In this document: positions 237 to 64,000 of the stretch, one piece after another
Layout: every line of letters starts with the position of its first letter
How positions within the stretch are numbered: the first letter of the stretch is position 1
NCBI RefSeq assembly: GCF_900638305.1
Contig: NZ_LR134506.1
Location: forward strand, 186,001 to 250,000
Direction: 5' to 3'
Length of the DNA: 64,000 bases
Source: Porphyromonas cangingivalis
GTDB lineage: Bacteria > Bacteroidota > Bacteroidia > Bacteroidales > Porphyromonadaceae
Position numbers and translations under genes: made by a program
Notes under the pieces: generated by a model
Seen by the model: only the letters and a program-made list of their open reading frames with translations
Database searches by the model: none
Told to the model about the DNA's origin: nothing

Positions 237-1594
237 TTACTTTTCAGAATTATCGTTCCTGTTTGTCTCGATTTGCTGACCTTGAGAGGCAGTTGCCCTT
301 ATTGGCTCACCATACATCTTGTGCATGGTGTTGAGGTACTCGACCATACGTATCTCTTGTGGTTGATCGGTGGGTGTCCAGAAGGTCATCTGCTCCATCT
401 CCTTCGGCATGTATTGTTGAGGAGCGTAGTGCCCCTTGTATGAGTGAGGGTAGATGTAGCCCACTCCATAGCCCAATTCGGACATCAGTTCGGTCGGTGC
501 ATTGCGAAGGTGCATTGGGACCGGATGGGCAGGGTTACTGCGTACGTACCCCAATGCTTTGTCTATGGCCTCATAGGCACTGTTGCTCTTAGGGCTCGTC
601 GCCAGATATATGGTCGCTTGTGCCAGGGGAATGCGACCCTCCGGCCATCCGATCTTTTCTATCGCATCGAATGCCGCTTGGGCGATCAGGAGTCCATTGG
701 GATTCGCAAGGCCTATATCCTCGGCTGCAAGTATTACCAGTCGTCTGGCGATAAACTTGGGATCCTCTCCACCCTCGATCATTCGTGCCAACCAATACAA
801 TGCTGCGTCGGGATGACTTCCTCTGACCGACTTGATGAAGGCAGAGATGATGTCGTAGTGCATCTCGCCGCCCTTGTCATAGACCGCCGGGTTTTGTTGA
901 AGGTGTCTTGCCACATTTTCGTTCGAGATGATCACTGTCTTTGACTTCTGCGCCTCCGGTGTCAGTGTCAGGAGTTCGAGGATGTTCAGAAGTTTCCGCG
1001 CATCACCCCCGGCAGCCGCAAAGAGGGCATCTGTCTCCTCTATCTTAAATTCGAATGCCTGCATGAGTGAGTCCGTCTCTATTGTTTTGTCCAAGAGACG
1101 TCTCATCGCATCTGCATCAAGAGACTTGAGTGTGAAGACTCTGCAACGGGAGAGTAGGGGACGAATGATCTCGAACGAAGGATTTTCGGTCGTCGCCCCT
1201 ATGAGGGTGACGATTCCACGTTCGACAGCATGAAGGAGGGAGTCTTGTTGGGACTTGTTGAAGCGGTGTATCTCGTCGATGAAGAGTATGGGCGTGCCTC
1301 CCGAAAAGAGATTGTTCTTATTTTCTTCTGTCATCTTCAGTACATCACGCACATCCTTGACGCCCGAAGAGACAGCACTGAGGGTATAGAACTGTAGCCC
1401 AAGGTTTTTTGAAATGATGTGAGCCAATGTTGTCTTGCCCACACCCGGAGGCCCCCATAGTATGAAAGAGCGTAAAATCCCCCTGAGAGCATCTCATACA
1501 GCGGTGCTCCCGGCGCAACCAAATGCTCTTGCCCTACATAGGAGTCAAGAGACTGAGGTCGCATTCTTTCTGCTAAAGGTGCTAGTGAGGTCAT
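237..1594 (-). pseudogene. rarA: Replication-associated recombination protein A (RarA/MgsA), frameshifted near the Walker A motif
   Basis: RarA is a clamp-loader-like AAA+ ATPase acting at stalled replication forks. The gene reads in two frames. The 5' frame from ATG 1594 gives [20 protein letters not shown] and then [16 protein letters not shown], the RarA N-terminus. The other frame gives [19 protein letters not shown] (Walker A), FIDEIHRFNKSQQD (Walker B), GATTENPSFE (sensor 1) and the MgsA-type C-terminal domain to the stop at 237. The frames meet at a run of five C (plus strand 1479-1483); six C would give a continuous protein of about 452 residues, the usual family length. As written the product ends early, and the larger downstream piece would start at or after the GTG inside the P-loop. 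It may be a real mutation, a slippage site or a sequencing error; everything else looks intact, so decay is recent if real. Confidence 0.85.
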
Positions 1595-1780
1595 TTCCAG
1601 TACAAAGGTCGATGTTACTTTTCGCTATTCCAAATTATTTGGCATGTTTTTTTGAACGTTTTGAGAATGCTTTCATTTTCAAGAATGTATTTGTCTCTTT
1701 CACCTCTTGACTTTCGTGTGGTCGGTCGAGTTTTGTGTCTCTTGACTCGTGTCTCCTTGTCTGTCTCTGTTCTCTAAAAA

Positions 1781-1846
1781 AAAGTCGTAGGACTTGATCT
1801 CGAAAGTCGTAAGATTCGATGACGAAAGTCGTAAGATTCGTTTTCG
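1781..1846 (+). repeat. Three tandem copies of a 22-bp unit
   Basis: Units at 1781-1802, 1803-1824 and 1825-1846 each begin AAAGTCGTA and continue with (A/G)GA(C/T)T(T/C)G. The array is intergenic between the divergent rarA and rplS. Just after it, TACGAC at 1854-1859 is the inverse of GTCGTA in the third unit, so a hairpin is possible. The same 22-bp periodic unit occurs at 46086-46174. The 437-base gap 1595-2031 otherwise holds only the rplS promoter. Confidence 0.8.
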
Positions 1847-1906
1847 AGCTTTCTACGACCGAAATCTCTGGGTGTCCCTATATGGATATGGGAGGTCTGT
1901 AAAGGG

Positions 1907-1937
1907 TTGGATAATCAGAAATTTATGGTTATCTTTG
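1907..1937 (+). promoter_or_regulatory. Promoter of rplS (Bacteroidetes type)
   Basis: TTG at 1907-1909 and TATCTTTG at 1930-1937 are separated by 20 bases, matching the Bacteroidetes -33/-7 pattern (TTG / TAnnTTTG). The start codon of rplS lies about 95 bases downstream, leaving a leader of ordinary length for a ribosomal protein gene. Confidence 0.7.
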
Positions 1938-2031
1938 CAGACGCTTTGCGTAATCTCTGACAGGAGTTTGAAAGTGAGACCTGTGTATATTGCGTTTAGT
2001 ACTTAACTAATTCAATAAAGCAAAACTTATT

Positions 2032-2382
2032 ATGGATTTTATTAAACTTGTCGAACAAGAGTTTAAGAGCGGAAAGGAGCACACTTCTTTCAAGAGTGGT
2101 GACACCATCTCTGTGCACTATCGTATCAAGGAAGGTAACAAGGAGCGTATCCAGATCTTCCGTGGTGATGTCATCCGCATCTCCGGTCATGGTGAAAAGA
2201 GAAGATTTACTGTACGTAAGATCTCTAACGGTGTAGGTGTCGAAAGAATCTTCCCAATGGACTCACCATTCATCGAAGAAATCACACTCCACAAGGTGGG
2301 TCGTGTGCGTCGCGCTAAGTTGTATTACCTACGTCAGCTACGTGGTAAGAAGGCGAGAATTCGTGAGCGTCGCAGCTTCTGA
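2032..2382 (+). CDS. rplS: 50S ribosomal protein L19
   Basis: The product of 116 residues is typical of L19, a protein at the interface of the ribosomal subunits. It carries the family signatures [29 protein letters not shown] (residues about 60-76) and [20 protein letters not shown] near the C-terminus. The ATG at 2032 gives the conserved N-terminus [11 protein letters not shown]. It is a single-gene unit with its own promoter (1907-1937) and terminator (2449-2493). No trmD or rpsP, the usual partners in other phyla, is next to it, which is normal for Bacteroidetes. Confidence 0.97.
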
Positions 2383-2448
2383 TACGCAACTCGTTCGAGG
2401 AGAGGGCAGGGTTTGACATGATGTCCCCGGCCTGGTCCAAAGACACAA

Positions 2449-2493
2449 AGAGGATATGTCTCCACATGAGGGATGTATCCTCTCTTGTTTTTT
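2449..2493 (+). terminator. Rho-independent terminator of rplS
   Basis: AGAGGATA (2449-2456) pairs with TATCCTCT (2476-2483), followed by CTTG and six T (2488-2493). Confidence 0.75.
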
Positions 2494-2530
2494 GTGGATC
2501 GGACCTCATCATAGTCTAAACAGAATGCTG

Positions 2531-2538
2531 TATCTTTG
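2531..2538 (+). promoter_or_regulatory. Putative -7 element of purB
   Basis: TATCTTTG matches TAnnTTTG and lies 66 bases before the purB start codon. No TTG at the ideal distance is visible upstream, so only the -7 box supports it. Confidence 0.45.
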
Positions 2539-2603
2539 CCTTTTTAATAAGCACATGTATATATTACTTAACAATCTAATTTAGATAACATATCCTTACT
2601 CAG

Positions 2604-3950
2604 ATGGCTTTATCTTCTTTGACGGCAGTGACGCCTATTGATGGGCGTTATGGCAGACAGACCGCAGTATTGAGCAATTACTTTTCAGAGTTCGCCCTCA
2701 TCAAATATCGTATTCATGTAGAGATCGAGTACCTGATCGCTCTTAGCGAGACGATTGAGGTCTCCGATGCTCTTGCAGATCAAGAGGTGCGTAGGCAGTT
2801 GCGTGATATTGTCGCAAACTTTACCGAGGCTGATGCTCTCCGTGTCAAGGAGATAGAGAGTGTCACCAATCATGATGTCAAGGCCGTCGAGTACTTCATC
2901 AAGGAGCGTATAGGGGGTACACCGGTGGATGCGGCGAGGGAGTTTGTCCACTTCGGACTCACTTCTCAGGATATCAACAACACTGCCCAGCCGGTCATGC
3001 TCAAGCGCGCCATGGATGAGGTGTGGGTGCCGATGCTTGAGGAGATCATCGCAAAGATCGATAAGTGTGCCGATGAGTGGATGGATATCCCCATGCTTGC
3101 GAAGACGCATGGACAGCCGGCTTCACCGACAAAGTTGGGTAAGGAGTTCAAGGTCTTTGCTTACAGGCTGGAGCAACAGTTGGCCCTCTTGAAGGCCATT
3201 CCTCATACCGTCAAGTTCGGAGGAGCTACGGGGAATATGAATGCGCATCACGTGGCTTATCCCGATGTCGATTGGAGAGGATTTGCACGCAAGTTTGCCG
3301 GAGAGTACCTGGGGCTTGGTCTCGAGGAGTACACCACTCAGATCTCCAACTATGACAACCTTGCGGCTCTCTTCGATGCGATGAAACGTATCTTCGTTAT
3401 CCTTATCGACCTCTCTCGAGATGTATGGCAGTATATCTCCATGGAGTACTTCAAACAGAAGATCAAAGAGGGTGAGGTGGGCTCGTCAGCCATGCCTCAC
3501 AAGGTCAATCCTATCGACTTCGAAAATGCTGAGGGCAATCTCGGTCTTGCCATCGCGATGTGTGAGCATCTGGCGCACAAGCTCCCGATCTCTCGCCTCC
3601 AAAGAGATCTCACCGACTCTACGGTGATGAGAAACATGGGTTTGCCATTTGCTTATTCTATGATCGCACTCTCAAGTCTCAAGAAAGGCTTCGATAAGAT
3701 TCTGCTCAACGAGGATGCAGTCTTGAGAGACTTGGATGCAGCCCTTCCGGTTGTGGCAGAAGCACTCCAGACCATCTTGCGCAGAGAGGCCTATCCTAAT
3801 CCCTACGAAGCTCTGAAGGCTTTGACCCGCACCAACGAAAGGTTGACTACCGAGCGTTTGATCGAATTTATCGACTCTCTCGATGTCCCAACACATATCA
3901 AGGAGGAGATGAAGGCTATCACTCCTCGCACCTATACCGGAGTATATTGA
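2604..3950 (+). CDS. purB: Adenylosuccinate lyase
   Basis: PurB cleaves SAICAR and adenylosuccinate, releasing fumarate, in purine synthesis. The 448-residue product has the fumarase/aspartase superfamily signature GSSAMPHKVNPIDFENAEGN (about 292-311, holding the catalytic serine loop), the HFGLTSQDINNTA block (about 116-128) and the KTHGQPASPTKLGKE block (about 163-177). The length and motif spacing follow the E. coli-type PurB subfamily (long form), in which the substrate-binding region reads TSQDINN. The start MALSSLTAVTPIDGRYGRQT is the conserved beginning. It is a single gene followed directly by the riboswitch transcription unit. Confidence 0.97.
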   Translation: MALSSLTAVTPIDGRYGRQTAVLSNYFSEFALIKYRIHVEIEYLIALSETIEVSDALADQEVRRQLRDIVANFTEADALRVKEIESVTNHDVKAVEYFIKERIGGTPVDAAREFVHFGLTSQDINNTAQPVMLKRAMDEVWVPMLEEIIAKIDKCADEWMDIPMLAKTHGQPASPTKLGKEFKVFAYRLEQQLALLKAIPHTVKFGGATGNMNAHHVAYPDVDWRGFARKFAGEYLGLGLEEYTTQISNYDNLAALFDAMKRIFVILIDLSRDVWQYISMEYFKQKIKEGEVGSSAMPHKVNPIDFENAEGNLGLAIAMCEHLAHKLPISRLQRDLTDSTVMRNMGLPFAYSMIALSSLKKGFDKILLNEDAVLRDLDAALPVVAEALQTILRREAYPNPYEALKALTRTNERLTTERLIEFIDSLDVPTHIKEEMKAITPRTYTGVY

Positions 3951-50763: not shown

Positions 50764-51052
50764 CTTTATTCGAGGGGGCTTCTTGGAAAGCGATAAATTC
50801 GTACAAAAGCAACACTTTTCGGAAAAAATCTATCCTCAAGGTTCAAGAAAAGGCGAAATGGCGCAAATGAATTGTGAGTCAGTCAGTTTTGGATTTTAAG
50901 CCATTTGGCGGAGAACTTCGAAAAGACGGATTTATGCCACCTCCGGACAGAGCAGCGTTACCAAAACATTACCACCTCCTTTGCAAGTGAGGGGTGGGAA
51001 AAGCGGTAACGAACAGCGCAATATCCGACCTGAACTTCGGGGATTACCTCCT

Positions 51053-51062
51053 GCAAAGGTAC
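51053..51062 (-). other. Candidate attachment core, exact match to GTANNTTTGC
   Basis: The minus strand reads GTACCTTTGC, an exact match to the CTnDOT core GTANNTTTGC, 123 bases before the integrase start. It could be the left attachment core of the element or an internal binding site. The repeat at the other end is outside the window, so it cannot be confirmed here. Confidence 0.35.
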
Positions 51063-51184
51063 TTCGATGAAAGGAAACAGGCAAATAAATTGCGGACTGC
51101 TTCTTTACCATTGAACGACAATGTTTTGCGTAGCAACAAATAACCTGACAATAAATAGTTTTGCAAACCATAAAAGTCAGAGTT

Positions 51185-52420
51185 ATGCGTAGTACGTTTA
51201 AGGTTCTGTTCTACCTCAAAAAGAACGCTCCCAAGAAGAATGGTTCCGTTCCCGTGATGTGTCGTATCACCATTGACGGCACCATTGCCCAGTTCAGTTG
51301 CAAATGCGACATCCATCCCGATTTGTGGGACATCAAGAGCAATCGCGCTTCTGGAAAAAGTACCGTTGCGTTGGAAACCAACCGTTTCTTGGACAAGATA
51401 CGTGTCGGTATCAATGCCAAATACAAGGAGATAGCCGAGCGGGATAACTATGTCACTGCCGAGAAAGTAAAGAACGCTTTCTTGGGTTTGGAAATGCGGC
51501 ATGAAACCTTGCTGAAAGTCTTCGCGCAGCACAATGAGGACTTCGCCAAACTGCTCAATGCCGGTTTGCGAAGCAAATCTACCTACGAAAAATACTGTAC
51601 GGTCTACAAGCATTTGGAGGAGTTCATCAAGATGCGTTACCATGTCAGCGATATTGCTTTGAAAGAACTCACTCCGCCTTTCATTACGGACTTTGACATC
51701 TTCCTGCGCACCGAAAAGCAATGCTGTAACAATACGGTATGGATTTACATGATGCCCCTGCGCCGTATGATTACCATTGCCCAGAACCACGGATGGATAG
51801 TCCGTGACCCTTTTGTCGATTACAGCATATATGCCGAGAGTACCGATAGAGATTATCTGACGAAAGAAGAGATTCGCAGGCTGTTGGATTTGAGATTCCG
51901 CCGCAAGTCGATGGAGCTGGTTCGGGATTTATACATCTTTTGTTGCTTTACAGGTTTGTCCTTTACCGATATGAAGAACCTGACCAAGGATAATCTTCAA
52001 ACCTCCTTTGACGGGAAACTCTGGATTATGACCAAGCGACAAAAGACAGGGGTGGAGTCCAACATCATGCTCTTAGATATTCCTAAGCAGATTATCGAGA
52101 AATACGATGGTATGGCGAATGATAATTTGCTTCTGCCCGTTCCGACGTATATAACCGCTTGCAAGAACATCAAGAAAATCATCGGACTCTGCGGTATCGA
52201 AAAAGAGATTACGTGGCATACCAGTCGCCATACCATGGCAACGGAAATCTGCCTGACCAACGGCGTTCCTATCGAGACCCTTTCCAAGATGCTCGGACAC
52301 ACGAATATCCGCACCACGCAGATTTACGCCAAAATCACCCACGAAAAGGAGAGTCGGGACATGGCGGCACTCTCCGATAAACTGAGTAAGGTAGAGCAGT
52401 TCAATGAGATCACGATATAA
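51185..52420 (+). CDS. int: IntDOT-type tyrosine recombinase (ICE integrase)
   Basis: A tyrosine recombinase of 411 residues from ATG 51185, the same length as IntDOT of CTnDOT. An arm-binding N-terminal part (SVPVMCRITIDGTIAQFSCK) is followed by a SAM-like core-binding domain (about 110-210) and the catalytic domain: Arg247, GLSFTDMKNL with Ser259 where most family members have the first catalytic Arg, Arg285 and Lys287 in KRQKTG, His345/Arg348 in WHTSRHTMAT, His372 in LGHTNIRTT and nucleophile Tyr381. These positions agree with the residues described for IntDOT. It integrates and excises the element. A possible -7 box TAGTTTTG is at 51156-51163. Confidence 0.94.
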   Translation: MRSTFKVLFYLKKNAPKKNGSVPVMCRITIDGTIAQFSCKCDIHPDLWDIKSNRASGKSTVALETNRFLDKIRVGINAKYKEIAERDNYVTAEKVKNAFLGLEMRHETLLKVFAQHNEDFAKLLNAGLRSKSTYEKYCTVYKHLEEFIKMRYHVSDIALKELTPPFITDFDIFLRTEKQCCNNTVWIYMMPLRRMITIAQNHGWIVRDPFVDYSIYAESTDRDYLTKEEIRRLLDLRFRRKSMELVRDLYIFCCFTGLSFTDMKNLTKDNLQTSFDGKLWIMTKRQKTGVESNIMLLDIPKQIIEKYDGMANDNLLLPVPTYITACKNIKKIIGLCGIEKEITWHTSRHTMATEICLTNGVPIETLSKMLGHTNIRTTQIYAKITHEKESRDMAALSDKLSKVEQFNEITI

Positions 52421-52437
52421 TACAAGAAGGACAAACG

Positions 52438-52800
52438 ATGAAAAGAGAAATCATAACCATTGGAGAGGGCGGAAAGGTACATATTCCGACAAGCCCTGTT
52501 TGGATGTCGGCTTGTGAAATAGCCGATTTGTTCGGCGTATTCTCCGGTAAGGTAAGCAACCACATCAAGTCTATCTTCAAAGAGGGCTTACTCAGGGAAG
52601 ATGAGGTGATGCGAAGGTTAATGTTTAAGGACGGTGCTGTAGATTTATACAATCTTGAAATGATAACGATGCTATCGTTTCGATTTGCCTCTCCAGAAGC
52701 CAAGAGCTTCCGTAAATGGATAATCGGAAGAGTGACCGAAAAGAAGAGAACAAGTTCTCCGCTACTTGTGTGTTATGGCAAAGGTGGATGGTACAACTGA
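52438..52800 (+). CDS. Small RhuM-like protein
   Basis: A 120-residue protein directly after int (17-base gap). It begins MKREIITIGEGGKVHIPTSP, then MSACEIADLFGVFSGKVSNH and IKSIFKEGLLREDEVMRR, and ends LYNLEMITMLSFRFASPEAK with FRKWIIGRV. The order (HTH-like part, IFKEG.L.E..V, then YNL..I....FR..S..A..FR.W) matches the N-terminal part of RhuM/Bro-N-like proteins, which in other elements are DNA-binding or phage-related. No catalytic residues are seen. Cotranscribed with int by position; role in the element unknown. Confidence 0.7.
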   Translation: MKREIITIGEGGKVHIPTSPVWMSACEIADLFGVFSGKVSNHIKSIFKEGLLREDEVMRRLMFKDGAVDLYNLEMITMLSFRFASPEAKSFRKWIIGRVTEKKRTSSPLLVCYGKGGWYN

Positions 52801-52807
52801 ATATGAG

Positions 52808-52846
52808 AACAGGCAGTAAGAAAAATGCTTCTTGCTGCCTGTTTTT
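52808..52846. terminator. Terminator behind int and the RhuM-like gene
   Basis: AACAGGCAGTAAGAA (52808-52822) pairs with TTCTTGCTGCCTGTT (52829-52843; one T-G pair), then TTT. It lies between converging genes and could serve the minus-strand HTH pair as well. Confidence 0.75.
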
Positions 52847-52849
52847 CTG

Positions 52850-53152
52850 TCAAGGCTTCTCAAACCGAGGGCGATAATTCTCTTGCAACAGCTTTTCCAC
52901 ATCCTCTTCTCGGTAGAGTACCTTTCCGCCTAACTTGATAAAGGAAATCCTTCCCATGTTGCGATAGTCTTGCAACGTGCGTCGATTGATATGCAATAGA
53001 CGGGACAACTCATCATCCGTCAGGTAGCGATGACCGTTAAGCAGAGGTCTGTTCTTTTTCCGCAGAGCATCTATGCCTTTTATCATGCGGTCACCGGCGT
53101 TGAAAAAGTACGCAATCTCTTTGTCGTTCTTTGTCTTTACGTCATTGTTCAT
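52850..53152 (-). CDS. Small helix-turn-helix protein (Xis-like), minus pair, second gene
   Basis: A 100-residue protein with a charged N-terminal part (about 1-38) and a MerR/excisionase-type winged HTH: RYLTDDELSRLLHINRRTLQ (about 42-61), DYRNMGRISFIKLGGKVLYR with EEDVEKLLQEN. Such HTH_17 proteins include the Xis2c/Xis2d excision factors of CTnDOT. It follows its paralogue at 53189-53467 after 36 bases. Likely controls integrase direction or transcription; inference from family and place. Confidence 0.85.
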   Translation of the reverse strand: MNNDVKTKNDKEIAYFFNAGDRMIKGIDALRKKNRPLLNGHRYLTDDELSRLLHINRRTLQDYRNMGRISFIKLGGKVLYREEDVEKLLQENYRPRFEKP

Positions 53153-53188
53153 ATTTACGTTGGATTTAGTGGTTAGATTGTTTATTGG

Positions 53189-53467
53189 TTATAAAGCGGA
53201 GGATCGTTCGAGCAGTTTTCCGACATCCTCCGGTTTATAGAACATCTTATACCCTATTTGCGTGTAGGGCAACATTCGGTTGCTACGATAGGTTTGCAGG
53301 GTACGCAAACTGATGTTCAGGATTTGGCAGACATCCTGATTGTCCAGCCACCTGCCCATACGCTTCTCGTCACACTCCCGACACAGGGCATCGACTTTGG
53401 CTGTCAGAATGCGGAAATGCTCCATCATGGCTTCATACGTTTTCCTCTCTATTGCTATTACTTCCAT
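53189..53467 (-). CDS. Small helix-turn-helix protein (Xis-like), minus pair, first gene
   Basis: A 92-residue protein. An N-terminal helix (VIAIERKTYEAMMEHFRILT) with a short coiled segment is followed by the HTH_17 domain: WLDNQDVCQILNISLRTLQT (about 40-59) and YRSNRMLPYTQIGYKMFYKP with EDVGKLLE. It is clearly related to the plus-strand protein at 54026-54343 (LDNQ(D/E)VC, then (R/K)RTLQ.YR). First gene of the minus-strand pair. Confidence 0.85.
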   Translation of the reverse strand: MEVIAIERKTYEAMMEHFRILTAKVDALCRECDEKRMGRWLDNQDVCQILNISLRTLQTYRSNRMLPYTQIGYKMFYKPEDVGKLLERSSAL

Positions 53468-53500
53468 AATTCTTGTCCGTTTTAATTTTCACTTCCACAC

Positions 53501-53508
53501 AAATGTAG
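53501..53508 (-). promoter_or_regulatory. Putative -7 element of the minus-strand HTH pair
   Basis: On the minus strand TACATTTG fits TAnnTTTG about 34 bases before the start at 53467. No TTG at -33. The 221-base divergent region 53468-53688 should hold the control sites for both HTH pairs. Confidence 0.35.
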
Positions 53509-53688
53509 TTACGAAAAGAGACTCCTGCCCCTGATTATCCATTATAGCGTACTTGTGGCTTCGATATGGATGCCTTTGTCGAAGAATATTTGAAACTGAG
53601 GCGAAAAATCTTTATTCAGTACATATTTACCATACAATTCATCCTATTGTCCCTCCCGAACTTTGTGCCATAATCAAGTCAAATAGTT

Positions 53689-54042
53689 ATGGATGTCATT
53701 ACACTAGAAAGCAGAGCCTTTCAGGAACTGATAGGTAAGATAGAAAAGATTCTTCGGTATGTGGAGCAGGAGAAAAAGGCAAAGACGGAGTATGAAAACC
53801 GCCTTATCTCCAATGATGAGTTAGCCGCGATACTAGGTATCAGTAAACGTACCCTCCAGCGTATGCGCAGTGCAGACCGAATCGGCTACAAGATAATCTA
53901 TGGGCGTTGCTACTACGACCTACATGACATCGAGGAGGCGATACGCAACAGAAGTCTCTACTGTAATCCGAAGAACATGGAAGAACTACGGCATAACTTC
54001 AAACTTAAAAGTAGGAAGATAAAGGATGGAACTATTGGATAG
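53689..54042 (+). CDS. Small helix-turn-helix protein (Xis-like), plus pair, first gene
   Basis: A 117-residue protein starting MDVITLESRAFQELIGKIEK, parallel to the start of the protein at 53189-53467 (MEVIAIERKTYEAMMEHF), with a short coiled coil and an HTH_17 domain: LISNDELAAILGISKRTLQR (about 43-62), MRSADRIGYKIIYGRCYYDL with HDIEEAI. It overlaps the next gene by 17 bases, implying coupled translation. Likely an excision or regulatory factor. Confidence 0.85.
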   Translation: MDVITLESRAFQELIGKIEKILRYVEQEKKAKTEYENRLISNDELAAILGISKRTLQRMRSADRIGYKIIYGRCYYDLHDIEEAIRNRSLYCNPKNMEELRHNFKLKSRKIKDGTIG

Positions 54043-54343
54043 AGAGACCTTTCTTGACTGGATGGAACGCATCATGAAGCGTCTTGATGATTTGAAGCAG
54101 CCGACTCACGATATACCCCAACGTCCAATGATAGAAGGAGAACCGTTGTTGGATAACCAAGAGGTATGTATGATGCTTCAAATCAGCAAGCGTACTCTGC
54201 AACGTTACCGTGCTTCCGGGACACTTCCTTTCCACATTATCTACCATAAAACTTGGTACTTGGAATCGGAAATTCTCTCTTTCATGAAAGCCCACTTTAC
54301 CGAAAACCTAAAACGAAAAAGAACAAAGAAAAAAACTATGTGA
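54026..54343 (+). CDS. Small helix-turn-helix protein (Xis-like), plus pair, second gene
   Basis: A 105-residue protein with a helical N-terminus (ELLDRETFLDWMERIMKRLD), HTH_17 domain LLDNQEVCMMLQISKRTLQR (about 41-60) with YRASGTLPFHIIYHKTWYLE, and a very basic tail (LKRKRTKKKTM). Its start lies inside the end of the previous gene. The basic tail and paired arrangement fit a DNA-bending excision factor. Confidence 0.85.
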   Translation: MELLDRETFLDWMERIMKRLDDLKQPTHDIPQRPMIEGEPLLDNQEVCMMLQISKRTLQRYRASGTLPFHIIYHKTWYLESEILSFMKAHFTENLKRKRTKKKTM

Positions 54344-54507
54344 CTTTAGAGTGAGTAAATTGATTGTGCACAGTCGTTAAGCCCCCGTTTTGTCGTGATG
54401 ACAAGGCGTTTTTGCATTAAAGAAGATTTTGCTTCAAAAATTAGGCATGTCAGAAATAATTCGCTATTTTCGTAGTAGAATATACGATCCTCGTGCTTTT
54501 TACAAAG

Positions 54508-54711
54508 ATGAAATTGAATAGAATAAAAGACGTTCTTGAAGAAAAGGGAATATCTCAAAAATGGCTGGCAGAGAAGCTCAATAAAAGTTTCAGCACAGTG
54601 AATGCATATGTCTGCAATCGACAACAGCCCTCTCTTGAGATGCTATATCGGATTTCTGTAGTATTGCAAGTAAAGGCAACAGATCTTTTAGTTGATAATG
54701 ACGATAAATAG
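54508..54711 (+). CDS. XRE-family (Cro/CI) transcription regulator
   Basis: A 67-residue protein from ATG 54508, consisting of one HTH_3 domain: MKLNRIKDVLEEKGISQKWL, then AEKLNKSFSTVNAYVCNRQQ and PSLEMLYRISVVLQVKATDL. Such single-domain XRE proteins control small cassettes such as toxin-antitoxin or restriction systems. The next gene, a GHKL-ATPase/nuclease fusion, begins 5 bases after its stop, so the two form one operon that XRE probably regulates. A start five codons upstream is possible but adds no conserved residues. Confidence 0.88.
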   Translation: MKLNRIKDVLEEKGISQKWLAEKLNKSFSTVNAYVCNRQQPSLEMLYRISVVLQVKATDLLVDNDDK

Positions 54712-54716
54712 ATACT

Positions 54717-56627
54717 ATGAAAAAGAAATCTGCTCCTATATATCGCTCTCTTTTTGAGGAAGACTACCTTGTTAGAACGTTGAATAGTTCCATAACCAGC
54801 CAAGCTGATATTGCTTTAACGGAACTTGTTGCAAATGCTTGGGATGCAGGTGCTACAAAAGTAAGCATATTCATTCCCGATGAATATGGTGGTCTCCTTG
54901 TCGTAGAAGATGATGGCAATGGTTTGACAGAAGAGGAATTTCAACAACGTTGGATGACCCTGGGATATAACAAACTAACACATCAAGGTAAACAGGTTCT
55001 ATTTCCAGATAAAAAGAAAAGAAGTCCTCGCATGGCTTATGGACGCAATGGTATTGGCAGGCATAGCCTTTTATGCTTTAACGACGAATATCATGTTGTC
55101 ACTTCAAAAAACGGGAAGGAACTTTCTCTTACAGTTTCAACTAAAGTAAAAGATCAAGCGATCTCTGTCATTGAACAAAATATCTCACCCTCTTCAAAGC
55201 ATGGTACAAGATTGGAGGTTCGAGTTGATAGAAATCTTCCCAATGTGGATAAAATTAGAGAAATAATCTCCTCTCGTTTCCTACATGATCCTGAATTCAT
55301 AATAGAGGTAAACAAACAGCAACTCTCTTTAGATCAGCTAGATGGCTTGTTAAACACAACAGAATTGAAGACATCAGATGGATACAACATTATTGCAAAT
55401 TTTATAGACTCAAAGAAATCTTCTCGCAAAAGTATCTATCTAGGAATTGCTTTTTGGGAAAGCGGTCGTTTGATCGGCATTCCGTCATGGGGATTAGGAA
55501 CTATTTTTTCTTTAGATGGCAGAACCGCCCTTGCTAAGAGATATACAATCGTAATACAAAGCAACGAATTAGCCGAGTTGGTCAGGGAAGATTGGAGTGG
55601 CTTCAAAAACACAAATGAAACAGAAAATTTGTACCGAACAGTTGCAGAGTATGTGAATACAATGTTTGAACAAACAGCAAAGGCTAATTTAGAAGAAACA
55701 AAGGCTATTGTAAAGAAGGAATTGGCTGCTAAATTAAAAGAAGCTTCTCCATTGGCTCAGTATGAGGTTGATGAAATCATAGAGAATATTTCGATAAATT
55801 CTCCAACAGCAACTAAAGAAACAATATCTATTGCCGTTGAGGCTGTGTTAAATTTAGAATCATCGAAAAATGGACAAGAGCTTTTAATGAAGCTCTCTCA
55901 ACTTACGGAAGAAGATATTACGGGTCTTAATACTATACTCAATAAGTGGTCAGTAAAGGATGCCCTCACCGTATTGAGTGAAATTGATAGACGCTTATCC
56001 ATTATTGAAGCAATAAGAAAACTTTCTAAAGATAAGAGCACAGATGAGTTACATGTCTTACACCCTCTTGTAACCGAATCTCGGTGGCTTTTTGGTCCTG
56101 AATATGATACTCCCGAATATACATCTAATAGGCAGCTTCAGACCGTAATGAGGACTTTGTTCAAAAGGGATATCTTGGATGGGAATGGTGTAAAAACAAA
56201 TAGAAGACCAGACCTTGTCGTTTTAGCTGATAGTACTTCTCTTTCCATGACAGGTGTAGAAGAGTTTGGCGATAATGAGCTAGCTACAGTAACCAAAGTT
56301 CTGATAGTTGAACTAAAACGAGGAGGCTTTGAAATAACAAGTAAAGAAAGAAATCAAGCTACTGACTATGTAGACAGTTTGATTGCATTGGGAATTAATA
56401 CTGCAAAAATAACAGCTTTTGTCGTAGGAGATAAAGTGGCAAAAGGGTTACAACGTCAGTATCGTGCAGGTTCTAAAGATGAAGGAAGCATCTTCTTGAC
56501 AGACTTTGATCAACTTGTTGACACTGCTGAGAAACGAATGTTTGGACTTAGGAATAAATTAGCTGCAATGTATGATGATATTCCCGGAATGACTTTATAT
56601 CAACAATCCAAATTGAAGTTGTTTTGA
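54717..56627 (+). CDS. GHKL-type ATPase fused to a PD-(D/E)XK-like (Shedu-like) nuclease domain; candidate defence protein
   Basis: A 636-residue protein. The N-terminal 300 residues are a GHKL/Hsp90-MutL-type ATPase: N-box IALTELVANAWDAGA (Glu36, Asn40, Asp43), VVEDDGNGL (Asp65-Gly69), YGRNGIGRHSLL (Gly-rich lid, 108-119) and GTRLEV (163-168). A helical middle (about 300-440) follows, then a domain with ESRWLFGPEY (454-463), RRPDLVVLAD with Asp499, and VLIVELKRGG with Glu532 and Lys534, plus Gln547, which form a PD-(D/E)XK nuclease pattern as in Shedu/DUF4263 proteins. ATP-gated nuclease action on foreign DNA is a reasonable inference; no such exact pair is known to me by name. The cassette is more A/T-rich than the genes on both sides, has a terminator behind it and looks like cargo of the ICE. 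Confidence 0.85.
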   Translation: MKKKSAPIYRSLFEEDYLVRTLNSSITSQADIALTELVANAWDAGATKVSIFIPDEYGGLLVVEDDGNGLTEEEFQQRWMTLGYNKLTHQGKQVLFPDKKKRSPRMAYGRNGIGRHSLLCFNDEYHVVTSKNGKELSLTVSTKVKDQAISVIEQNISPSSKHGTRLEVRVDRNLPNVDKIREIISSRFLHDPEFIIEVNKQQLSLDQLDGLLNTTELKTSDGYNIIANFIDSKKSSRKSIYLGIAFWESGRLIGIPSWGLGTIFSLDGRTALAKRYTIVIQSNELAELVREDWSGFKNTNETENLYRTVAEYVNTMFEQTAKANLEETKAIVKKELAAKLKEASPLAQYEVDEIIENISINSPTATKETISIAVEAVLNLESSKNGQELLMKLSQLTEEDITGLNTILNKWSVKDALTVLSEIDRRLSIIEAIRKLSKDKSTDELHVLHPLVTESRWLFGPEYDTPEYTSNRQLQTVMRTLFKRDILDGNGVKTNRRPDLVVLADSTSLSMTGVEEFGDNELATVTKVLIVELKRGGFEITSKERNQATDYVDSLIALGINTAKITAFVVGDKVAKGLQRQYRAGSKDEGSIFLTDFDQLVDTAEKRMFGLRNKLAAMYDDIPGMTLYQQSKLKLF

Positions 56628-56642
56628 AATGGTATAAATTCT

Positions 56643-56683
56643 AAAAGGACGAATTACAACAATATGTAGTTCGTCCTTTTGTT
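56643..56683. terminator. Bidirectional terminator between the defence cassette and the helicase gene
   Basis: AAAAGGACGAATTAC (56643-56657) pairs with GTAGTTCGTCCTTTT (56666-56680; one wobble pair). A and T tracts flank both sides of converging genes. Confidence 0.75.
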
Positions 56684-59600
56684 TTATATCTTCGGTCTGA
56701 CAATGAACACCTTTTCAGCCAAAGACGGTGGTAGTCTTTCCTTCGAAGGCTGTGTAGCTGAGCTACTCTGCCCGTTGTCTTCCAACGGTCTGTCGGTTTG
56801 AGCCGCAGAGGTGCTGACGGAGGGGGCGGCGACAGTCGGCTCAATCGGACGTGACCGTTCCAATTCTTCCGCCTTTCTTTCGCCATCTTGCATCATCTCC
56901 GTTCCCTCCTGTTGGCTTTCTCCCTCTTCAATCGGCTTTAGGGAAAGCTGTATTTTTCGGTCAAGTGCGGCAAGTTCCGTTTTGAGCTCTTTGAGCTGCT
57001 CTTCCTTCTTCCATGAACCGTTTACCACCTCCAGCAAAACAGGAATATCCTTGGCAATCTTCTCCGTGTCTGCCTGATATTTCTCAATCAAGCCGGGTAT
57101 CTTCTCCAAGGCATTCAGGAAATTCATACAGGCTAGTTGTGGGTCTGTCGCAATCTTGCCGTTGTTGTAACTGTACTTCATTCCGCTTTCTCCCATCACG
57201 AAGAATTTGTTCTGTGAAAGGTCAAACAGATCTTTGGAAGAGGATTCTGTCTTGACCACGAGATTAAATCCGTAGAGGCTTCCAATACTAAAGTATTCCC
57301 CCTGAGTACGAGCTTTTTCATTGATTTCTGTCAGTTTAGTTGCAATGCATTTCGGGTCTTTACTCTCTACTCCTTTGAGTGTTATCGGGTTGAGTATGTT
57401 GCCCTCGTTATCTTTCTGCACTCGGCTTTGGTATAAATCCCAATCGCTTCTGAAACGACCAATCAGTTCCCTATTGCTATCCACTGCTCGCATAACCTCC
57501 TCCAAACGACTTCGGGAGGATGATTTACTGCGGATGAAGGCCTGTCGCTCACTCTCCAAACCGGCTATTTTCTTTTCCAATTTCGCCTTTTCCAACAAGT
57601 CGGTATTTCCTGAAAGAATGGCTACATACTCGGAAAAATTCATTCCCGACTTCTCGTCCATACTTCCCTCGTCGATGGTACGACTACCCATACGGTTGTT
57701 TTTCAGCTGTTCGATGAAAAGCTGCTTATTGTGTAACAGATTGAATTTGTAACTATCAAGCGACTTTTCCACCGCATAGATGATAACATCCACCTTATTG
57801 TCTGCATAGAGTTTGGCTACCTCGTTTCCCTTACGCACGGCTCGTCCATCCCTCTGCTCTAAGTCAGAAGGACGCCATGGTGTGTCCAAATGATGGATAG
57901 CGACAGCACGCTTCTGAGCGTTTACACCCGTTCCGAGCATTGAAGTAGAGCCGAAAAGCACCCGGATTGAACCTTCATTCATGCCTGCGATGAGCGTCTT
58001 TCTTGCCTTGTCAGTCTTGGCTTCCTGAATGAAGCGTATCTCCTGAGCGGGTATGCCGTGATCTTCCACCAACTTGCGCTTGATTTCGGAATAGGGATTC
58101 CATTCGCCCGGCTTGTAGGTGCCTAGATCACTGAATACAAATTGCGTTCCTTTCTGTTCCTCAAACTTGTGGTAATACTCCGCAATCTTGGCAGCACAGT
58201 GGGAGGCTTTGTTGTCCACATGATCTCCGTACTTGTTAGGATCAATAAGTCTCAAATCTAAGCTCATCTTTCGAGCCATGTCCGTTGCGATAAGCATCTT
58301 GGCTTTCTCCTCTCTATCGGAGAGTTTCTCTCGTCCCAATAATTCCGCATTACCTGTCTTGGCAAATTCCACCAACTTGGCAATGAACTTCTCCTGTTCG
58401 GGTGTAGGTGGTATGTTGTGCATAATCTCATTCTTTTCGGGGCGGTCTATGCCGATCTCCTTTGCCGTTCGATAATCGGTGATTTGAGCGTAGAACGCCG
58501 CCAACTCCGGCACTTTGATAAAATAGCGGAAACGCTCCTTCTGCACGATTTCATTGGTAACAGAGAACTCATAGTCCACAGATTTCTTGGCGAAGATGGC
58601 AGCCCATGCGTCAAAGGTTTTGATATTCTGTGCTTCGAGGGCTTGGGGACGCAGGTATTTGAAAAGCAGGTACAACTCCGTAAGTGAGTTCGATATGGTC
58701 GTACCCGAAAGGAAGGTGGCTCCCAAGTCTTTCCCCGTCCGTTCTTGTATCGTTCGTATGGCAAAGAGCATATTCAAGGCACGCTGACTTCCCTCACTGT
58801 TCCCAAGCCCTGCCACTCTGTCGTGGCGAGTATTGAACATCAGGTTCTTGAACGTATGCGACTCGTCCACGAAAAGATGGTCTATACCCATGGTCTTGAA
58901 ATCTACCACGTCGTCCTTTCGGTTCTCTATCTTGAACTTGATTTCATCCAGCTTTGCCCGTAAGTTCATCTGTCGCTTGACAAGCCCCTTTTCCATGGCA
59001 CGAGAGATACTGCGCCCCTGCTGACGCAGAACTTCCAAGTTCTCTTCCACGCTGTCCAACTCATCCTGAAGGATTTTCTGCTGTATCTCGTCCGATTGCG
59101 GTATCATACCGAATTGGTCGTGTGTGAGGACAATGCAATCCCAGTTGTTATTCTTGATATCGTGGAAAATCCTTTGCCGTTTGTCGGGGGTGAAGTCGTT
59201 CTTGCCCGGATAAAGCAGCTTGGCATTCGGGTAAGCCGTTTGGAAAGTCTGTGCTATCTCCTGCACGTTAGCCTTGAGAGCGAGTATCATCGGCTTGTTT
59301 GCCAAGCCGAGCCGTTTCATCTCATAGGCTGCAGTACACATGATAAGCGTTTTCCCTGCCCCTACTTGATGGTCACAGATACCCCCTCCGTTAAGCTTCA
59401 ACATCCACACGGCATCCTTCTGACTGTCGTACAGGCTTTCGATACCCAAGCCTTTCAGGTTGAGGTCGGGGAATGTCTGATGGGATCCATTGTACTGAGG
59501 ACGAACAAAACAATTGAAAGTATCATTATATAGTTTCTCCAATCGCTTCTTGAACTCATCGCTCTGCTCGTTCAACCAATCAGTAAAGCCGTTTCGTATC

Positions 59601-62176
59601 TCATCGATTTTAGCGTTTGCCATCTGTATGGCTTCGGTATCTCGTACCTTGACCTCTTTGTCTCCGACCATGATTTTCTTGGTGATGTCCGGCGTTGTAT
59701 TCAGCAGGGCATGCTTCATCAAGGCAATACCATCGTAGCGACGATGCTGTCCCCGCACACAGAATCTGTCCCAGATGTTGGCATTGTGGCCCCGTGCATC
59801 CACGGAGTATTCGTCCGCACTTGAATTGTAGCGTATCGTCACCTCGGTATCGAAGAGGTGCGAGGCATAATCAGAGTAAAGGTTTACGGGAATCCATCGC
59901 TCCCCGAAGTTGAAATCCAAGTCCACGAAAGGAATAGGTTCGGGGATGGCATCTTTCAGGGCCTGCAAGGAGACTTGCGCCCTTGTGTCCTCCGGATGCT
60001 CCAAGAGATATTGTTCGATACGTTCCGATGCGGCAACCACATTGCCCGATATGAACTTTTCGGCGATTTCATACTCTCCCTCCAAGGGATTGTAATAAAT
60101 TTTGCCGTGCAAGTCGGAGAGCATCTCCTCTTCGGAACTTTCGGGAAGCAAAGAGAGCATATATCCGGTGTCCACCGCTCCGAATTTATTGAGTGAAGCC
60201 GAAAGTGCTTCTTGGGCATTGCTCACCTCTGTTACCTCGTGCAGGCTGAAAGAAACGGGTTGATGGAAAATGTCGGCTTTGAGCGTTTCTTTATCCACCT
60301 TTCGTTCCAAGAAAAGGATCTCCCTGCAACTGGCATCCATCAGGATCTGCTCGTGGTTCTTGCGATCGTTCAGATACCCGTACTGCCGCACGAAACGGTC
60401 GTACAGTTCATTGAGGTTCTGTCGCAGGGATTCATTCGCCACCTTGCGTTCCGCTTCATAATCATAGAGCGTATGGTAAGCATCTCGCAGGTCTATGTAG
60501 AGTAACATTTTTTGTCGTTCTTGGGAAGAGAGGTCTATGGGCTGGAACATTCGATTGTCCTCCATATCACGGACAAGCATTCCGACTTGAAAGTCCGAGG
60601 CAAGCAAAGAACCCTCTCTGAGGTGTTCATGCCATAAGCCCTCATAGGGACGCTGCTGCATCCCTTTCTCCTTGTTCTGCTGCCACCACAACTCTCCTGT
60701 CTCCAACAGTCCCATAGCAGTCTCTTGTTGCTTTATTTCGACAGTGGGAGAAGGGGTGGAAGCCACAGCACGTTTCATCGAGGAGGTTTTTCGTTTGGGT
60801 TTCTCCTCTTGAATGATATTGCCAAAAAGGTCGAGTAGTTGTACCTGTGGTGCAACACTGCTTCGGGGTTGCTCTGTCGGCTGTTCCTTTTTCAGTTGCA
60901 CCACCTCTTGGTGTGATTGCTCTTCTTCCGAAGTGGCAGACGTAAGCGTCACTTCTCGCTGTTTTATTTCGGGAGGAACGGCAATGCTAACTTGGGGTTG
61001 CTCCTGTATGAAGATATGCTTTTGGTACAACGCCATATCCAAGCGTTTGGCTAAATCAGCCCGTAGGATTTTACCCATATCGGTGGCGATGCCTTCCGCT
61101 CCACCCTCGTGATGGAACAGAATGGCAGGCTTGCCGTAAGGGTCGGTGTCCTGCTTCCACTCGGTATGTACGATCTGTGACATACTTCGCAGATAAGTGT
61201 TGAACAGCACCCCGCTAGGGCGTTTCTCACTCTTGATGAAACGCAGTTCCTCTTCGGTCAAACTTGTCTTTCCTCTCTGCTTTTGCAGGACGATAAGGTC
61301 ACTGCCCACTTCTGTCCCCGCATTTTCCGAGAAGAGATTATTAGGAAGGCGAATCGCCGAAACAAGGCGGGTATGATTCATCAGCCACTCCCGTACAGAC
61401 TCGTTCGTTGGCGCATTCATAACGCCTTGCGAGGTGATGAATGCCAGCACGCCACCCTCACGGAGCATATCTACCCCCTTGACGAAAAAGTAATTGTGCA
61501 GGGACATGCGGGAGACCTTTCGGGCTGGTTCGTCCGTCTTGCTGAAAACAGGGTCGAAGACAGCCATATCTCCGAAAGGAATGTTGCTGCTAACCACGTC
61601 GAAATAACCTCCGAACTTGGATTCGATTTCCTCGAACCCTCGGATGCGTATCTTGTTTTCGGGGTACAGGGCGGAGAGCATCTGCCCCGTGAGAATGTCT
61701 TTCTCAAAACCGAAAGTCGTATGTCCTTCGGCTGCAATGGCATCAAAAGAGCGGATGAACTCGCCCATTCCCGCCGAAGGGTCAAGGATTCGCTTGGGGA
61801 CGATACCTGCCTCCTGTAAGGCAACGGCAATCTCCCGCACTATGGGCGCAGGAGTATAGAAAGCGGTCATCACGGAGTTTTTCAGGCTCTGCATATAACT
61901 CTTGTATTGCGATTCGGAAGCGGTGTTGTCTCTAATGATGCTGTGCAACTCCATCACCAAGGGGAAAAGCTCCAGCTCCGACTTGTTCCATCGGGCGATG
62001 TCCTCCATCGTGTTGGCAGGAGAGAGGATACACTTCAAAGCCCCGAAGCCCGTATAGGCTTCCAATATCGTACGCTCTTCGGGTGTCGCCGTGCGCTGTT
62101 CCCGATGCAGGGCAAAGACCGTCTTGATGGCTTCTATGTTTGCCTTTAGATGCTCCTTCTTGTTATAGCTTGCCAT
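56684..62176 (-). CDS. Methylase-helicase fusion protein of the ICE (N6-adenine MTase-like plus SNF2-type helicase)
   Basis: A 1,830-residue protein typical of Bacteroidetes conjugative elements. The N-terminal region is a class I methyltransferase fold: [11 protein letters not shown] (130-140, SAM motif I) and SSNIPFGD (196-203), where N6-adenine methylases have (D/N)PP(Y/F). A long linker with Gln/Pro/Glu-rich stretches (about 380-490) follows. The second half is a superfamily 2 helicase: [20 protein letters not shown] (Walker A), [12 protein letters not shown] (DESH Walker B), [10 protein letters not shown], and [17 protein letters not shown] with [20 protein letters not shown] (motifs V and VI). 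The C-terminus is a coiled coil with a Pro/Ser/Gln tail. It resembles phage DarB-type antirestriction proteins. Its start overlaps the end of DUF1896 by 14 bases. Confidence 0.9.
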
Positions 62177-62594
62177 CCTCTTCGAGTTTTAGTTGGACAA
62201 AACCCGTAATCTCCGTATAGAGGGAGTTGTATTCGGGCATATAGGCGAACTCGTCCGAAATCGGATACTTGGCGAAGATGCTTTCTAAGAGCGGGCGCAG
62301 GCGGATAGCAGTCTCCCTGACCGCTTCAAGCGGCACTTCAGCAGAGAACTCGTTCCAAAGAACAGAGGAGATGGTATCGTGGTGGGAAAAGTGCAAACCC
62401 GCATAGAGCGTCTTGTTGGCGATACCGATACATTCGGTTATGGGAAGTCCGGCATCGAAGGCTTCGGCATAGGCTTCGGAAGCAGCTGCCGCACGCTCTT
62501 TGATAAAAGAAATATCACCGGCTTTTTCGGGATGACTTTCCCGAAGAAAGGAGAGCAGAGATAGCTCGTAATAGGAAAATCGAATGGCTGTCAT
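62163..62594 (-). CDS. DUF1896-family protein
   Basis: A 143-residue protein found in Bacteroidetes conjugative elements between topB and the large methylase-helicase gene. It reads [20 protein letters not shown], then [20 protein letters not shown] with [17 protein letters not shown], and ends in [20 protein letters not shown]. Mostly helical, no known motif. Its last 14 bases overlap the next gene, suggesting coupled translation. Function unknown. Confidence 0.85.
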
Positions 62595-62762
62595 ATCTGT
62601 GATTTTAGTGAATGTTTTGAGTTGCCCTGAAAAGCATAGAGGTAGTTGGACAAAAGCTTAGGAGTAATCGAGAGAAAGCTTATAAGCTTTTTACCTTTCA
62701 GTCATTAGGTTTGGAAAGAGAGGCTCTCCGGAGTCTTTTCGGGCATGACGTTATAATGCAAA

Positions 62763-62787
62763 GGCACTCGACGTCCCCGCCGAGTGC
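62763..62787 (-). terminator. Hairpin after topB
   Basis: GGCACTCG (62763-62770) pairs with CGAGTGCC (62780-62787); on the minus strand only a short T tract (CTTTGC) follows, so termination is uncertain. The gap 62595-62868 shows nothing else. Confidence 0.4.
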
Positions 62788-62868
62788 CACCACTAAAATC
62801 CGCAGTAAAAACAACAGGATTGTTTATGACCGCATCATTCAGTGGCAAAATTAGCAAATTACGGGGAG

Positions 62869-64000
62869 TTACCTTCGGGATTTGCTCGGTTTCTTATGCT
62901 CGGGGAAGATGAAGACTGTCTTGAACTCTCCGTCCAAAGAAAGCGAAGCCTCGAAGCTCTTACCTGCTTTGGAGGTAAAGCCCTTAATGACACCTGTCTC
63001 CCCGTTCACCGCCAATTGTGTCAGTTGTTCGTCTGTGAGGCTCTTGCCTGCCACATTGCGGAAAAGGGTTAGCCCACAATCGGCATCGGAACATTTGGCA
63101 CATCGGGGATAGAAGACCAGTGAACCTTTGCCACATTTTGGGCAATGGATGTCGCTCTGTTTCTTGGGAAAGAGGATTTTGGAGGAGAGCAGTTCATCGG
63201 TAATCTGTGTGGCGTAGTTTTCGATGCCCTTGCGAAACTCTTGCTCTTTCAACTCTCCCCGTTCGATTCTCGCCAAGTCCGCTTCCCACTGTCCGGTCAT
63301 CTCAGCATTGCCGATTTTCATCCCCTTGACGATGGAATAGACGGCAAGTCCTTTCTCCGTGGGGACGAGCGACTTCTTTTGGCGCACCATGTATTCACGG
63401 GCAAAGAGGGTTTCGATGATGGCGGCACGGGTTGCAGGTGTGCCGATACCGCAATCTTTGAGCTGCGCACGCAATTCCTCGTCCTCCAACTCCTTGCCCG
63501 CCGTCTCCATCGCTGCCAACAGCGAACTTTCCGTGTGCAGGGGCTTGGGCTTGGTCATTCCCTGTGCCAAGGAACAGGAACAGAGCGGGAGTTGCTCGCC
63601 TTCCTCCCATTCGGGGATGATGATGCCTTCCCCATTTTCTCGACTTTCTCGTTCTTCAGCTTCTAACTGCTCCTTATCTTTTTTCCTGCTGTTTTTGAGG
63701 ATGGCACGCCAACCCTCTTCCTTGATGATTTCACCTTTGAGGATGAACTTCACACCTTCACAGATGGCAGTAACCGTACTGACATCTTTCACGCAACGGG
63801 CGGAAAAGGCTTCAAGCATACGTCCGGCTATCATATCGTAGATGACCGCCTCGTCTCCAAACATGTCTATCGGCTTCTTGCCCGTGATGAGCAGGGCATG
63901 GTGGTCGGTCACTTTCTTGCCGTCCACCGAATGCGCATTAAGTTCGGTCAGTCGGCGGGCATGGACACCCCAGACGGGATGGTCGTGCAAAAAGGCTATC
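62869..64000 (-). CDS. topB: DNA topoisomerase III, C-terminal part (cut by window edge)
   Basis: The reading frame is open to the right edge (IAFLHDHPVWG before the first possible start), so the gene continues outside. The segment includes the type IA topoisomerase part DHHALLITGKKPIDMFGDEA, GIGTPATRAAIIETLFAREY (conserved in the cap domain), KKSLVPTEKGLAVY, and a C-terminal zinc ribbon with CPKCGKGSLVFYPRCAKCSD then CGLTLF, and a topo C-terminal repeat GVIKGFTSKAGKSFEASLSL. TopB decatenates and relaxes DNA; ICE-borne copies are common and help excision or transfer. Confidence 0.93.
   Translation of the reverse strand, partial: IAFLHDHPVWGVHARRLTELNAHSVDGKKVTDHHALLITGKKPIDMFGDEAVIYDMIAGRMLEAFSARCVKDVSTVTAICEGVKFILKGEIIKEEGWRAILKNSRKKDKEQLEAEERESRENGEGIIIPEWEEGEQLPLCSCSLAQGMTKPKPLHTESSLLAAMETAGKELEDEELRAQLKDCGIGTPATRAAIIETLFAREYMVRQKKSLVPTEKGLAVYSIVKGMKIGNAEMTGQWEADLARIERGELKEQEFRKGIENYATQITDELLSSKILFPKKQSDIHCPKCGKGSLVFYPRCAKCSDADCGLTLFRNVAGKSLTDEQLTQLAVNGETGVIKGFTSKAGKSFEASLSLDGEFKTVFIFPEHKKPSKSRR

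Follow-up and report, generated by a model that had tools for sequence, protein, structure and literature searches.

The 64,000-nucleotide stretch of Porphyromonas cangingivalis DNA analysed here (the window) carries, on an integrative and conjugative element (ICE), a two-gene cassette encoding a small XRE regulator and a large protein in which a GHKL ATPase is fused to a PD-(D/E)XK-type nuclease domain. The first gene (54508..54711, forward strand) encodes a 67-residue XRE/Cro-type helix-turn-helix (HTH) regulator (HTH_3, E-value 4.6e-11) and has an alternative GTG start 15 bases upstream. It is followed after 5 bases (54712-54716) by the gene of the 636-residue fusion protein (54717..56627, forward strand), which was defined by its open reading frame (ORF), domain matches and alignments. 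Between this gene and a convergent methylase-helicase gene lies a strong terminator hairpin with a 17-pair stem and a T tract (56642..56681, listed without a strand), and a weaker terminator-like hairpin with a 10-pair stem and a T tract (54386..54408, forward strand) lies between an HTH gene of the ICE and the cassette. Counting both strands of 54200-56900, there are four terminator-like sites, compared with 1.5 +/- 1.4 in shuffled sequences. The GC content of the cassette is 37.2%, compared with 44.2% in 50825-54343 and 49.6% in 56684-64000. The original prediction, made from the letters of the DNA alone, had described two genes 5 bases apart, bounded by a terminator and richer in A/T than the flanking ICE, and this description is correct in each point.

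The GHKL ATP-binding domain covers residues 31-151 (54807..55169, forward strand; HATPase_c_3, E-value 3.4e-18) and includes E36, N40 and the DDGNG and GRNGIG motifs. We aligned 11 sequences with identities down to 19% (alignment A1) and found that E36, N40, D65/G67/G69, G109/G112/G114 and G163 are invariant. The domain match and the invariant motif residues agree with the claim that the GHKL ATPase is complete. In a second alignment of 11 sequences (A2), some of the remaining positions in the DDGNG, GRNGIG and GT motifs are variable. A MutL profile from ten genomes matched the 636-residue protein over residues 12-341 (E-value 4.3e-12), with an alignment that is gapped and, judged by eye, poor beyond approximately residue 170, where an S5-like transducer domain would be expected. 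The A1 profile matched 184 distinct PDB sequences up to an E-value of 1, the best 60 of which were Hsp90-type chaperones, MutL and PMS2/Mlh1/PMS1.

The PD-(D/E)XK-type nuclease domain was assigned to approximately residues 440-620 (56034..56576, forward strand) from invariant or nearly invariant residues and from a match to a Shedu profile. In this half of the protein, E444, R497-P498-D499, E532, K534 and Q547 are invariant in A1. Across A2 and a third alignment of 16 C-terminal sequences (A3), E532 is nearly invariant, being Asp at locus L030 (L and G numbers denote loci and genomes of our survey), and P498 is not kept, being Ala at L028 and L029. Catalytic residues are kept across relatives of 19-93% identity. 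Conservation of the named residues in relatives shows that they are real and under constraint; thus E36, N40, D499, E532, K534 and Q547, which had been proposed as catalytic, are conserved in distant relatives apart from the one Asp for E532.

Kinship of this domain to Shedu was revealed by comparing profiles. We built a Shedu profile (A4) from five proteins, four from 12 candidate places and one from the L022 gene. Our C-terminal profile matched it over 141 columns with a score of 36.8 (E-value 2.5e-4, probability 43%), and the Asp, the Glu-x-Lys and the Gln were in register. With match states taken from the first sequence, the score was 39.6 (E-value 1e-4, probability 58%), compared with at most 24.7 for 200 Shedu alignments with shuffled columns and 13.8 for the reversed one. 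Since the score exceeds all 200 shuffles, the Shedu-like end that had been suggested is supported at the profile level, and we conclude with moderate to good confidence from these alignments that the domain is homologous to Shedu. A PDB sequence search with the nuclease domain gave no convincing match; the five sequences found up to an E-value of 10 were all Lsm3 (0.047-0.51).

The location on an ICE, also part of the original prediction, is supported by a tyrosine integrase gene (51161..52420, forward strand; Phage_integrase, Phage_int_SAM_5 and Arm-DNA-bind_5) and by a shared start of similarity. The left start of the ICE is at approximately 50,815-50,825, just before the integrase gene, where similarity begins to loci of Prevotella illustrans (L001), Alloprevotella sp. 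Lung230 (L002) and P. dentasini (L003). The right end was not found by searching the organism's own genome with 161 bases across the left end, which returned this sequence itself and a 16-base match at an E-value of 0.34. A short ORF after the integrase gene (52438-52800) matches many PADLOC PDC-S05 models with its N-terminal 100 residues (best E-value 5.9e-16) and has weak similarity to RhuM.

On the left, the cassette is bordered by an excisionase-like HTH gene (54026..54343, forward strand; HTH_17, E-value 1.8e-9), and on the right by a gene for an N6-methylase/SNF2-type helicase of 1830 residues (56684..62176, reverse strand; Eco57I, SNF2-rel_dom and Helicase_C). DNA matches to the region were observed in 32 of 295 genomes. 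From these 32 we took 11 related regions, chosen for a match to the methylase-helicase, so that tblastn matches to it are present in all 11 by selection. Neither the nuclease nor the XRE query matched anything in the 11 regions. Two of them, L095 and L097, have a slot with both neighbours arranged as in the window, in which homologs of the excisionase-like HTH protein (37% and 48%) border different cargo: AbiLi plus AbiLii/RloB-like genes in L095, and a Type IIG restriction-modification (R-M) gene, an ORF without matches and a RES-domain gene in L097. L096 has an HTH_17-like match in the opposite orientation, together with a methyltransferase, an RsgA-like GTPase and an RteC-like gene, which are not clear defence genes. 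The left HTH neighbour was not found in the other eight regions. Six of these (L094 and L100-L104) have a gene like that of elongation factor G, which we take to be tetQ, and two regulators, presumably rteA/rteB, no more than about 4.5 kb from the methylase-helicase gene (domains were checked only in L102), and L098 and L099 have other genes near it. An empty site was not obtained among the related elements, which have diverged (65-82% DNA identity, with two short pieces at 85% or less) and carry other genes. Because different genes lie between the same neighbours in related elements, the place at 54344-56683 is probably a cargo slot, the two-sided case comprising 2 of the 11 regions together with the window and L001-L003. 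For L002, identity at third codon positions is 75.5% for the nuclease gene and 66% for the XRE gene, and 50-53% for three backbone stretches. The excess of the nuclease gene over the backbone suggests a younger common history, as for cargo that moves separately, although stronger selection may also be the cause.

Of 295 genomes from the order, 14 have a match to the nuclease protein at an E-value of 1e-10 or better, and in that search matches over most of the protein were observed only in the organism's own genome, in G023 (50% identity) and in G283 (51-53%, two frames). The homologs of P. dentasini (L003) and of G283 (L007/L019) are each split in two frames, which decay or assembly error may explain. 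A family profile matched 14 of 395 genomes of the phylum, our own included, at an E-value of 1e-30. At 1e-10, 14 of 72,556 plasmid records match, all with less than 60% identity, and in 13 of them a single place accounts for 80% or more of the query. A phage-borne gene was considered and rejected, as none of 50,697 phage records match at 1e-10. Nine IMG/VR loci match, two over short parts only. A tree of 22 proteins places the window protein with those of L001, L002, L006 and L027 at 100/100. L038, which is linked to an R-M gene, falls in a group of 12 rows beside this clade, with the fork open (86/82); L011, L041, L043 and L044 are distant, and L025 is on a very long branch.

Several relatives have defence genes as neighbours. 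We submitted neighbours of five relatives, picked by ourselves, to PADLOC at an E-value of 1e-8 or better, and found defence matches at four of five loci and for seven of ten neighbour proteins. At L027 (54% identity), a gene for Type I restriction lies one ORF upstream, and L006 has a GajA/OLD-like ATPase gene one ORF downstream. Upstream of L021 lie genes resembling GajA and GajB as well as a Type IV-like gene. At L022, on a Rhizobium plasmid (7971-11376), a full canonical SduA lies 10 bases downstream, so that two Shedu-like nucleases stand in a row, and a Type IV/PbeA-like helicase gene lies upstream. The sole neighbour submitted for L037 had no match. Record annotation also places an AbiEii-type gene directly before L023, genes for MmeI and Cas9 in the vicinity of L024 and, following L026, a HepT-like gene. 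Thus, the neighbour survey that had been proposed as a check showed that four of five relatives have Type I restriction, Gabija-like or Shedu genes close by.

The XRE gene has a narrower range. Counterparts are present in the same place at L001 (94% identity), L003 (94%) and L002 (76%). With a narrow search model built from four XRE sequences, an XRE gene was found upstream of 4 of 21 homologs, namely those of the window and of these three loci, and was not found at the other 17, for four of which (L006, L037, L038 and L011) at most 1.5 kb of upstream DNA was available. We therefore do not retain the idea that an XRE switch is a regular part of the system; it is a partner within the lineage of the window and its three closest relatives. 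Among the loci compared, the closest XRE protein outside this lineage (43% identity) is at L018 (92-3294), where an XRE gene, a C5-methyltransferase gene and a long GHKL gene stand in a row. This R-M-type row points to a possible R-M origin of the switch. A search for an XRE operator gave weak inverted repeats only.

Taken together, we interpret the large protein as a stand-alone, ATP-gated defence nuclease of GHKL plus PD-(D/E)XK type, with the paraMORC3 architecture and Shedu-like, its GHKL domain serving as the sensor in the manner of VcSduA, and as exchangeable cargo of the ICE. We give this reading a probability of about 0.8. It draws on the domains, the intact active-site residues, the profile kinship, the cargo position and the defence genes near relatives, all observed here. 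Phage defence that requires both ATPase and nuclease residues has been shown for VcSduA only (PMC12137116), and by analogy with it the window copy would be active. The anti-phage cargo role that had been proposed for the cassette is supported by alignment, profile comparison and neighbourhood, and by a published protein of the same architecture. Gating of the nuclease by the ATPase, likewise proposed before, is made plausible by the conserved residues of both domains and by the same published protein. The nuclease protein would most likely be a dimer. On ATP binding, its two N-terminal GHKL domains would close on invading DNA, or on a DNA structure or protein made by the phage. This closure would release the C-terminal nuclease, which would cut the DNA, and ATP hydrolysis involving E36 would reset the enzyme. 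Binding of the XRE protein to its own promoter would probably keep expression low or time it.

Several results weigh against this interpretation. Four of the five A4 members were picked by a script for an ExK-like motif, so that part of the ExK register is there by choice. As a single sequence, the C-terminal part of the window protein matched neither Pfam SduA_C nor any PADLOC model, and the full-length protein matched one PADLOC SduA model at an E-value of 0.0011 over 47 residues only; PADLOC SduA matches were obtained for 5 of 11 A2 members. Among the 16 C-terminal domains, HSDR_N_2, a Pfam domain from Type I restriction enzymes, was detected in six (best E-value 1.2e-4), compared with three for SduA_C (best 1.1e-6). 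The neighbour survey had no random control. Compared with L001, the nuclease gene has 75.5% identity at third codon positions, the XRE gene 93% and the backbone 66-74%, so that the nuclease gene is not clearly higher there. Two fusions with residue numbers near the E27 and K557 of VcSduA, at L011 and L041 (E27 with K543 and K539, respectively), branch far away from the window clade, and the one at L011 has 19-20% identity to the window protein. Finally, the L038 homolog (29% identity; 358-3159) starts 3 bases after a C5-methyltransferase gene.

This last arrangement makes R-M ancestry the main rival, and gene order indicates that the R-M link is real for the family. The protein could then be a restriction enzyme of Type II-like character, akin to BbrUII/HgiDII, that has lost its methyltransferase or had it replaced, with an unlinked methylase, possibly the N6-methylase-helicase of the ICE, protecting the host and the XRE protein acting as a C-protein-like controller. 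We regard this as possible but rather unlikely. The best NCBIfam match of the protein is indeed the BbrUII/HgiDII restriction enzyme (E-value 1.5e-30), but it reached 106.4 bits against a curated cut-off of 550, and its best stretch is confined to the ATPase part, although a second stretch was counted. The same model gave 69-110 bits for nine relatives, where R-M-linked L038 was no higher (94), and no match for L011. PADLOC REase_II models match 10 of 11 A2 members. Two C5-methyltransferase queries detected a gene near 2 of the 19 loci searched, L038 and L032 (about 2.9 kb off), an annotated DNA methyltransferase is a few kb from L024, and the closest outside XRE protein heads the row at L018; the same two queries found none in the window or in the examined flanks of L001, L002, L003, L006 (1.5 kb) and L027. 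For an N6 partner, the single query missed even the methylase of the ICE itself, so an N6-type partner may have gone unnoticed. The genome has two C5 genes, at 1.23 and 2.21 Mb, whereas the cassette is at 0.24 Mb. One of them (G000:C1:1229909-1231442; L051, L005) is followed by its own 813-residue GHKL gene and probably belongs to a separate R-M system, and the other is followed by a convergent 235-residue gene that may be its nuclease. The ICE methylase-helicase is also present in elements without the nuclease cassette. As a side observation, the frame of the L038 homolog ends early, with a stop inside the nuclease domain.

Other roles were also weighed. The nuclease, under a dedicated XRE switch beside the excision genes of this ICE lineage, could be a weapon timed to transfer: set free once the ICE arrives in a new cell or suffers disturbance, it would clear competing phages and mobile elements there while the methylase-helicase shields ICE DNA; we consider this improbable. 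It is very improbable that the protein is a repair or element-maintenance enzyme, that is, a MutL-like ATPase with its own nuclease for replication or excision of the ICE. MutL models match the ATPase part in all 11 A1 members and the MutL profile aligns, the nuclease gene is near excisionase-like genes, and the authors who described paraMORC3 allow roles outside R-M for stand-alone genes (PMC2292703). However, related elements without the nuclease gene carry other genes in the slot, relatives reside on plasmids and further contigs where the query for the ICE methylase-helicase had no match, a normal MutL is encoded in the genome, and VcSduA is a defence protein (PMC12137116). A toxin-antitoxin-like pair, in which the XRE protein silences a nuclease harmful to the host, would account for the tight order of the two genes and the Cro/CI class of the regulator. 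It hardly seems credible, because the narrow model did not find an XRE gene upstream at 17 of 21 loci and VcSduA is consistent with direct phage restriction that preserves host viability (PMC12137116).

If the protein is a stand-alone defence nuclease, as we favour, the finding widens the range of GHKL-gated Shedu-like nucleases by a clade carried on Prevotella-group ICEs. It also adds an XRE partner, of which there is no mention in the parts of PMC2292703 and PMC12137116 cited here. In two related elements the cargo slot is occupied by AbiL-like or Type IIG R-M genes, and it offers a handle for finding more defence cargo. With R-M-linked L038 beside members that apparently stand alone, the family may be useful for the question of how a methylase-dependent restriction enzyme could become a stand-alone sensor nuclease, or the other way round.

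The cassette can be compared with several known systems. The original prediction had found no name for a GHKL-nuclease fusion, and the portion of the DefensePredictor paper used here holds nothing on one, but the architecture is in print as paraMORC3 and VcSduA; we therefore reject a novel fusion. The window protein resembles BbrUII/HgiDII (NCBIfam NF050001; sequences compared via the model only) in its GHKL half and in its similar length, and differs from it in falling far short of the cut-off and in that no C5-methyltransferase partner was found. It resembles canonical Shedu SduA (DUF4263) in the nuclease D, ExK and Q, which are in register by profile alignment, whereas the N-terminal half of SduA is unlike its own. 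ParaMORC3 was described computationally by Iyer, Abhiman and Aravind in 2008 as GHKL plus S5 plus a C-terminal domain of restriction-endonuclease fold with E-D-ExK, and its genes are partly stand-alone in proteobacteria and bacteroidetes (PMC2292703). Set beside this description rather than beside member sequences, the window protein shares the GHKL ATPase and the C-terminal E-D-ExK endonuclease, and its E444-D499-E532xK534 fits if, as we assign it, E444 is the first E. VcSduA, reported in 2025, combines a GHKL ATPase and a DUF4263 nuclease and protects against T1-like Drexlerviridae; E27A or K557A abolishes protection (PMC12137116). Its protection at all tested multiplicities of infection fits direct restriction, and its authors put forward the hypothesis of ATPase control over the nuclease and model the protein as an entwined dimer (PMC12137116). 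By description, not by sequence, the two are alike in being one protein with GHKL motifs, a middle region and a C-terminal PD-(D/E)XK domain, and both are encoded on mobile or island DNA, VcSduA on a genomic island; a difference is the XRE partner of the window protein, of which the account of VcSduA cited here makes no mention. The catalytic Glu and the Lys of ExK are similarly placed, at E27 and K557 in VcSduA and at E36 and K534 in the window protein.

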